A stretch of 64,000 bases of DNA from an uncultured Nitrospiraceae bacterium (GTDB taxonomy: Bacteria; Nitrospirota; Thermodesulfovibrionia; Thermodesulfovibrionales; SM23-35), in the NCBI GenBank assembly GCA_937138415.1, contig CAKZPA010000011.1, positions 1-64,000 of the forward strand. The letters run 5' to 3'. Position 1 is the stretch's first letter. Every line of letters begins with the position of its first letter. This document shows, in pieces, positions 14,208 through 15,681 of this stretch. A model generated the notes under the pieces. That model was not told the origin of the DNA and did no database searches. It saw only the letters and a list, made by a program, of their open reading frames with translations. A program made the position numbers and the translations under genes.

Positions 14208-15019
14208 AGAAAGACGTGGAGGCCTTTCTTCAGAAGTTTTACCCCGAAAAAGGCTATGAGAATTGTGACAAAGCCGATCATCGAGAGCACGGCGGCCCGT
14301 CTCCCTCTCCACCCCGCGACGAGGCGGGCGTGGAGGATGATCGCGTAGATGAACCAGGTGATGAGCGACCAGGTTTCGCGCGGGTCCCAGTTCCAGTAGC
14401 TCCCCCATGCGGTTTCGGCCCAGAGGGCGCCCGTTATGATCGCGATCGTGAGGAGAGGGAACCCGATCGTGATCAGGCGATAGTTTATTTCGTCGAGGGT
14501 CTGGAGGCTCGGCAATCTCCCGAAGAGGCTGCCGAGGTGCTTCTTCTTGACGTATCGTTCCTGGACGAGGTACATGAGACCGATCCCGAACGCGAGAGCG
14601 AATGCCGCATTGCCGAGGAAGGCGAAGACGGTGTGCACGCCGAGCCAGTTGCTCTGGAGGATCGGGCTTATCAGCTTGATTTCACGGGAAAGCATGGAGG
14701 AAGAGAGCATCAGGAGGAATACGATCGGCATGATGAAGGAGGCGAGGAGGCTGACTTTGTAACGGTACTGGAGGACGAAAAAAATGAGGACGATGCACCA
14801 GGCGAAGAAAGACGTCGCCTCGTGAGGGTTGGTGATTGGGAGGTGCCCGGCCGTCGAATATCGGTGCACGATGCTCACCGTATGGAGAGCGAAGCCTACG
14901 ATCGTGGAGAGGAAAGCGATTCGCGAAGTCGTTTTCGACTCTTTGAAAAGTTCCGTGAGGCCGATGAGCGCAGCGGCAAAGTAGAAGGTGAGCGCAAGTT
15001 CGAAGAGGATGATCCCCAT
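14204..15019 (-). CDS. ccsA: Cytochrome c biogenesis protein CcsA/ResC (system II)
   Basis: This integral membrane protein takes part in haem delivery to apocytochromes on the outer face of the inner membrane. The 271 residues have about eight membrane segments, the WWD signature WGSYWNWDPRETWSLITW (205-222), and candidate haem-ligand histidines including H130 in LGVHTVF and H230 in IILHARL. The ATG at 15019 overlaps the stop of the preceding small gene (TGATG), so I prefer it to the TTG at 15028. The ResB/CcsB partner is not in the window. The gene overlaps hemA by four bases. Confidence 0.92.
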   Translation of the reverse strand: MGIILFELALTFYFAAALIGLTELFKESKTTSRIAFLSTIVGFALHTVSIVHRYSTAGHLPITNPHEATSFFAWCIVLIFFVLQYRYKVSLLASFIMPIVFLLMLSSSMLSREIKLISPILQSNWLGVHTVFAFLGNAAFALAFGIGLMYLVQERYVKKKHLGSLFGRLPSLQTLDEINYRLITIGFPLLTIAIITGALWAETAWGSYWNWDPRETWSLITWFIYAIILHARLVAGWRGRRAAVLSMIGFVTILIAFFGVKLLKKGLHVFL

Positions 15020-15189
15020 CAGAAGCAACCGAGCTCGCAGTTCGTGATCTTGATCTGGAGCTCGTCGGCGGCTTTGCCGACTTCACGATAGGGGACGGAT
15101 AGGTCCTGCGCTATTTTCCTCGCGGTCGCGCAGGGGAGTCTCCCGTCTTTCGCCTTTTTCTCGATTTCTTTCTTGATCTCTTCCTTCAT
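15019..15189 (-). CDS. Small conserved hypothetical protein, HTH-like (56 aa)
   Basis: The short basic protein begins MKEEIKKEIEKKAKDGRLPC, continues ARKIAQDLSVPYREVGKAAD, and ends IKITNCELGCF. The middle resembles a small winged/helix-turn-helix unit (A-x-x-I-A-x-x-L-x-V-x-x-x-x-V-G), and the Cys-x-x-x-Cys-Phe tail looks conserved; I recall similar short proteins in anaerobic delta-proteobacteria. Function is unknown. It overlaps ccsA by TGATG, so it is translated with the haem/cytochrome genes. The ribosome site before the ATG is weak, and the frame extends upstream to 15276 without clear coding character. Confidence 0.5.
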   Translation of the reverse strand: MKEEIKKEIEKKAKDGRLPCATARKIAQDLSVPYREVGKAADELQIKITNCELGCF

Positions 15190-15369
15190 GGCAAGGGGAG
15201 AGAGGTCGGTACGGTTCGCTCCTTCTCGTCCCCGCGGCACGTGATCTGCCGTGTCCCTCGCGCACCCGCGGAACATTGTATTAATTGAAATATTACCTCA
15301 TGGGACTTCGAAAACTCAATTGAGCGTCTGCCCGTTGGGCGAGCTTCTGGCAAGGATTCGATTCCCAAA

Positions 15370-15681
15370 TTACCCGATTTTCTTCATGCGCGCCCGGATA
15401 GACGCGCGGAGCACCTCGACGGTCGGCACCTTCGTGAGCCTCCCGGACTCATCCATGAACATCCTTCAATACAGTCCGACGGCTTTCTGAGGCTGCACTT
15501 CTTCGTCGTCGATAAAGACCGACGGCGACCCCGTCACTCCGAGCGTAGCGGCCTCCGCATCGTCGATCCGGAAGAAGTTCACGTCCGCTTCAACCTGTTC
15601 GATCCTGAGCACGCGCGCGATGTTTTCGCGCAGTTCGTCTTCCGCGCCGCACGTTCGAGACAGGTAACAGTTGATTTTCAT
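15370..15681 (-). CDS. Thioredoxin-like protein with in-frame UGA: candidate selenoprotein
   Basis: The first 71 codons encode a small thioredoxin-fold protein (MKINCYLSRTCGAEDELREN, then VTGSPSVFIDDEEVQPQ). A TGA follows at 15466-15468, and the same frame continues for 31 codons (RMFMDESGRLTKVPTVEVLR, then ASIRARMKKIG) to TAA. In related small thioredoxin-like proteins, as I recall them, a Cys (or Sec) sits in G-L-x-C-R-x-Y just before a DE-G-R-x-x-x-VPT-x-E-x-I-R tail, so the UGA falls on that residue (position 72). With Sec the product has 103 residues, a complete family-like length. A SECIS-like hairpin lies 14 nt downstream. If UGA is a real stop, the gene is a truncated 71-residue form. 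Confidence 0.6.
15435..15451 (-). promoter_or_regulatory. Candidate bacterial SECIS element
   Basis: On the minus strand the RNA reads TGAG-T-CC-GGGA-GG-CTCA. This is a six-pair hairpin with a single bulged U in the 5' arm and a four-base GGGA loop. The loop begins 21 nt after the UGA. Bacterial SECIS elements need a short hairpin at about this distance with a G in the first loop positions and often a bulged U. The match is by eye only. Confidence 0.45.

Follow-up and report, generated by a model that had tools for sequence, protein, structure and literature searches.

The window, the whole stretch of 64,000 nucleotides that was analyzed, carries on its minus strand a gene that very probably encodes a 103-residue thioredoxin-fold selenoprotein, in which selenocysteine (Sec) would be inserted at residue 72 with the help of SelB and a hairpin, and for which relatives suggest a role as a carrier or reductant of metals or metalloids (probability of about 0.9 for this reading as a whole). 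The UGA at codon 72 is almost certainly decoded as Sec. An initial annotation of the window had already inferred this, and the inference held up on the Sec machinery of the genome, homologues with UGA or Cys at this site, conservation beyond the UGA and synonymous constraint on the hairpin. According to the mechanism that we propose, SelB loaded with Sec-tRNA-Sec would bind the hairpin 15 to 30 nt past the UGA and Sec would be inserted at residue 72, a step whose support is comparative rather than chemical. The protein would then bear Cys5, Cys11 and Sec72 and, as a small protein with selenol and thiol groups, could carry or reduce toxic metals and metalloids.

Reading frame and homologues of the gene

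The gene extends from an ATG at 15681 to a TAA at 15370 (15370 to 15681, minus strand) and comprises 103 codons, the UGA being counted as Sec. Seventy-one sense codons are followed by the TGA at 15468 to 15466 (codon 72), by 31 further sense codons and by the TAA at 15372 to 15370, which reproduces the coordinates of the initial annotation and adds the strand, absent from it. A TTG one codon upstream opens the same frame; the homologues begin with M-K-I and share the start methionine.

A protein search of 396 genomes of the phylum Nitrospirota returned a match in 55 of them, 52 of which were found by inspection to have TGA at codon 72, and a profile search of the phylum genomes agreed with this. 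Every close match spanning the site carried TGA, and no close relative had a sense codon, UAA or UAG there; the only close match devoid of TGA, in genome G234, was a fragment stopping short of the site. Most of the named relatives (family-alignment search, 8-row alignment) were MAGs of Nitrospirota, among them several Thermodesulfovibrionales, the group to which the source of the window thus probably belongs. No relative was found in the viral contigs searched.

The translations read GFSURMFxDESGRL, with the UGA in one single column (45 of 45 distinct aligned sequences), and Cys5, Cys11, a Gly-Ser-Pro motif and the arginine next to the UGA were almost invariant. Cys5 (codon 15667 to 15669), the first cysteine of a CYxSxxC motif, was near-invariant in the Sec-containing branch and missing from the Cys-containing one, while Cys11 (15649 to 15651) was invariant and itself encoded by UGA in one relative. 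The Gly-Ser-Pro motif (15523 to 15531), invariant in 44 sequences, would correspond to the cis-Pro position of the thioredoxin fold. Weaker, stop-free matches harbored a cysteine at the UGA column (DFGLKCRLY in G243 and G231, SLSCRTY in G021, GLTCRTY in G090), as did further distant homologues (GLKCRLY, SLSCRLY). The alignment at residue 72 that the initial annotation had recommended as a check gave UGA in 52 genomes and Cys in more distant forms. The relative with UGA at the Cys11 codon (L134; G360:C16, 2994-3284, minus strand, on the same contig as L091) also has UGA at codon 72, which again suggests that the family uses UGA for a Cys-like residue.

Amino acid identity between pairs of the 45 distinct sequences was 65% over the 20 codons following the UGA, compared to 37% over the 13 codons preceding it. 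Changes after the UGA fell mostly on third codon positions, and none of the 20 codons was a stop in any of these sequences. This strong conservation is the opposite of homologues ending at the UGA with nothing conserved behind it, an outcome that the initial annotation had regarded as fatal to its proposal, and it argues against the UGA being a true stop that would end a 71-residue protein and leave the remainder as an untranslated or decaying 3' end. UGA is the ordinary stop of 6 of the 10 window genes checked, which favors a true stop and at the same time speaks against a reassignment of the codon to Trp or Gly. Against termination also stand the maintenance of UGA in 52 genomes, never replaced by UAA, UAG or a sense codon in close relatives, and the cysteine at this column in distant forms, which is moreover neither the Trp nor the Gly that a reassigned code would predict. 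A sequencing error, likewise listed by the initial annotation as a danger, is contradicted by the presence of this UGA in 45 distinct sequences and in many independent assemblies, and nothing was found in favor of either an error or a reassignment. We consider a true stop very improbable, and a reassignment or an error has next to no probability; a reassigned code, a true stop and a read error were rejected on the conservation beyond the UGA, the UGA stops in the window and the recurrence of the UGA.

The hairpin downstream of the UGA

A SECIS-like hairpin, GAGUCCGGGAGGCUC (15436 to 15450, minus strand), lies 15 to 30 nt past the UGA and was found once in the window, at this position. Its stem arms occupy 15450 to 15446 and 15440 to 15436, the GGGA (15444 to 15441) starts after 21 nt, and the U at 15447 is bulged or paired according to the register. 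The Glu codon in one stem arm was GAG in 33 of 33 cases, compared to 10 of 29 for a Glu located 11 codons downstream (p 5e-9), and the Leu codon in the other arm was CTC in 39 of 44, compared to 11 of 38 for a Leu 9 codons further on (p 2e-8). The constrained GAG and CTC codons coincide exactly with the two stem arms. As judged from these alignments, the hairpin following the UGA is under constraint at the RNA level. A nearly identical hairpin, AAGUCCGGGGGACUU, follows the UGA of the selD gene of the same genome.

We then compared two ways of pairing the stem. With an unbulged register, forming a five-pair stem GAGUC/GRCUC with a loop NGGNN, 93% of the cells of the alignment were paired, a value that dropped to 24 to 44% when the register was slid. 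The bulged-U register reached 80%. Both have the outer three pairs and the loop GG in common, the GG being in addition held constant by a conserved Gly codon, and covariation was thin, limited to two pairs with one double change each. The unbulged register appears to fit the alignment better than the bulged-U one, and the register seen by SelB may be either. Of the SECIS drawn in the initial annotation, the hairpin itself and the GGGA after 21 nt were retained, while its bulged-U register was the less well supported of the two.

The hairpin was held to be real because of this comparative evidence, namely, codon constraint and pairing, and not because of thermodynamic folding. Folding of 51 to 61 nt of RNA from the UGA gave another structure, no more stable than shuffled sequences (z of +0.2 and +0.7), and only a local piece of 24 nt taken alone folded as initially drawn (z of -1.2). 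Folding in the natural context, proposed beforehand as a check, does not favor the drawn hairpin. A search of the hairpin against Rfam gave no family match. The right distance from the UGA and a G at the start of the loop, both looked for in a SECIS, were found on comparative grounds.

Selenocysteine machinery and a second tRNA

The genome around the window (2.11 Mb in 57 contigs, listed as 100% complete) encodes the machinery that Sec insertion would need. The window is devoid of selA, selB, selC and selD, as reported by the initial annotation, which had advised a search of the rest of the genome; this search returned all four, namely, a tRNA-Sec (74.2 bits; anticodon tca according to ARAGORN), selB (343 bits), selA (619 bits) and selD (381 bits, with one in-frame TGA). 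The selD gene (L045, G000:C57:4538-5464) has its TGA within an AAGUAS motif, immediately followed by the hairpin AAGUCCGGGGGACUU, and represents a second selenoprotein gene of this genome.

Across the phylum, SelB scored above cut-off in 49 of the 52 genomes with the UGA gene and in 123 of the 344 others (hand count; Fisher p ~1e-16, a value that ignores shared ancestry). The three UGA genomes with no SelB above cut-off were G140, which has a tRNA-Sec, and G073 and G084, listed as 89% and 74% complete, respectively.

The genome also harbors a second tRNA-Sec-like gene (L002; G000:C36:119382-119479, minus strand; 54 bits) with anticodon GCA and discriminator U73. It has an A-G mismatch in the acceptor stem and is not followed by SelB. 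In five genomes of the same family (G164, G178, G282, G284 and G356), an equivalent tRNA is followed some 50 nt further on by a second SelB. Vargas-Rodriguez and colleagues reportedly found in 2018 that tRNA-ReC inserts Cys at UGA in E. coli. With its Cys identity and its place before a second SelB in same-family genomes, the second tRNA resembles tRNA-ReC and selC* tRNA-Cys. It differs from the selC* tRNA-Cys followed by selB* that is described in Deltaproteobacteria (review, PMC7609411) in its Nitrospirota host and, in the genome of the window, in having no adjacent SelB.

The UGA could hence be read through SelB but largely as Cys by this GCA tRNA, at least when selenium is short. The occurrence of such a tRNA in the genome itself, its pairing with a second SelB in five genomes of the family and the deltaproteobacterial precedent speak for this possibility, while the presence of a canonical tRNA-Sec, selA and selD, the mismatch in the acceptor stem and the missing SelB behind the tRNA speak against it, and we consider it improbable. 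Sec is the main reading; since a second, tRNA-ReC-like tRNA is present, Cys may be inserted at some UGAs. Given the coexistence of this tRNA and a second SelB with genuine Sec machinery, whether one codon is decoded as Sec or as Cys can be tested directly.

Protein family, fold and genomic context

The protein matched the NCBIfam model DF_fam_seleno (NF049942) with 46.5 bits (E 2.8e-12), and with 38.9 bits when the genome was searched, both short of the curated cut-off of 70; all Sec-containing members tested also remained below it (36.7 to 61.1 bits), while the Cys form of G243 scored 117 bits, above the cut-off. NF049942 corresponds to the "hypothetical protein DF" of Xiao and Zhang 2025 (deep-Sep; PMC12013277; accession link in PMC13188914), for which one Sec-containing member, Cys homologues and no other UGA-containing homologue were reported. 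The window protein is collinear with positions 3 to 95 of the 96 of the model and has Cys11, Gly-Ser-Pro and the C/U-R motif in common with the G243 protein, a member of NF049942 with Cys at the UGA column. In contrast to the DF family, its branch is dominated by Sec and has the additional Cys5 of the CYxSxxC motif. Since the protein scores below the cut-off and yet aligns with the above-cut-off G243 form, we place the gene, on sequence grounds, in a Sec-dominated branch beside the barely known NF049942, as neither a counted member nor a wholly new family. The "new selenoprotein" of the initial annotation thus applies to the branch but not to the parent family, reported in 2025; a literature search for a Nitrospirota branch of the DF family found nothing relevant. 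The DF family, known from a single Sec-containing protein, gains a phylum-wide selenoprotein branch. The standard model misses this branch, whose members fall below the NCBIfam cut-off, and ordinary gene callers would cut its genes short at residue 71.

Pfam gave only weak thioredoxin matches, all below cut-off (PF13192, Thioredoxin_3, 16.9 bits for a cut-off of 24.8), and no solved structure was found by sequence search. AlphaFold2 run on 44 sequences gave a model with a pLDDT of 91. Foldseek matched it to many thioredoxins with a probability of about 1, solved thioredoxins dominating the structural matches, and VIA against 1v98 gave a Z of 8.9 and an rmsd of 2.7 over 83 aligned residues. According to the model, the 103-residue protein has a thioredoxin fold, of the type of PF13192 and of the MTH895/ArsE thioredoxins (TIGR00412). 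Unlike the latter it has no CxxC motif and carries a distal Sec instead: the start of helix 1, where the classical CxxC active site would lie, reads CYLSRTCGAE, with Cys11 alone at the helix start.

The family also recalls SaoT, SaoL and other Sao organometal selenoproteins (Haft and Gwadz 2023, as cited in PMC13188914), in that a thioredoxin-like selenoprotein has a MerB-like lyase as gene or fusion partner, or a SaoE-like permease in its vicinity. Its Sec is distal and precedes R-M-F, in contrast to the UxxC motif of SaoT; the NCBIfam SaoT model gave no match up to E = 1, and the MerB and permease partners of the relatives fell below the SaoL and SaoE cut-offs.

We next looked at the 56 loci with the gene. 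Neighbors of the ars type, namely, Acr3 (9 loci), ArsR (10), ArsC (5), a SaoE/ArsP-like permease (12) and an MTH895/ArsE thioredoxin (10), were present at 14 and MerA at 5; 37 loci, among them that of the window, had neither an ars-type nor a MerA neighbor. At four loci (L015, L020, L031 and L034) the frame of the seleno-thioredoxin domain extended into an organomercurial lyase domain of the MerB/SaoL type, and three of these loci had MerA immediately upstream; at L016 the frame ran on into an MTH895-type thioredoxin. A Cys form (L124; G090:C30, 2786 onward) was fused to a low-molecular-weight phosphatase domain, whose fold is that of one arsenate reductase class. Plasmids of Streptomyces and Gordonia encode, next to a MerR-type regulator, an alkylmercury lyase family protein whose N-terminal domain is the Cys form, so that fusions to MerB occur in Nitrospirota with Sec forms and again in Actinomycetota with Cys forms.

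Because of these neighbors and fusions of relatives (Acr3, ArsR, ArsC, ArsE-type thioredoxin, MerA and MerB), detoxification of arsenic or mercury appears to be the somewhat favored role, and the operons and MerB fusions provide the DF family with its first functional hypothesis. In relatives, its gene accompanies those for an MTH895/ArsE-type CPNC thioredoxin, an arsenate reductase and Acr3 efflux, with which the protein probably cooperates; alternatively, the protein would feed MerB/MerA, and some relatives have it fused to MerB. In the genome of the window, a search for Acr3 found none, one for MerA found only MerA-like proteins below cut-off, and the one MTH895-type thioredoxin is encoded away from the gene. 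As the gene has no such neighbors there, its substrate in this organism is a guess from relatives. A more ambitious and rather unlikely proposal is that the branch constitutes a module dedicated to selenium-dependent metal(loid) transfer. In it, Cys5, Cys11 and Sec72 would jointly make up a single As(III)/Hg(II)/organomercury site, from which the metal would be handed to MerB/MerA or to efflux, and the selenium supply would determine whether, in this lineage, tRNA-Sec reads the UGA as Sec or tRNA-ReC reads it as Cys.

In the window, the gene is flanked by cytochrome c biogenesis/heme genes on one side and by an mla-like lipid transport set on the other, as named by their reading frames. Directly downstream (15019 to 15276, minus strand) lies a frame for a small protein, which gave no Pfam or NCBIfam match; its longest form has 85 amino acids and ends in NCELGCF, and its start is probably an internal methionine.
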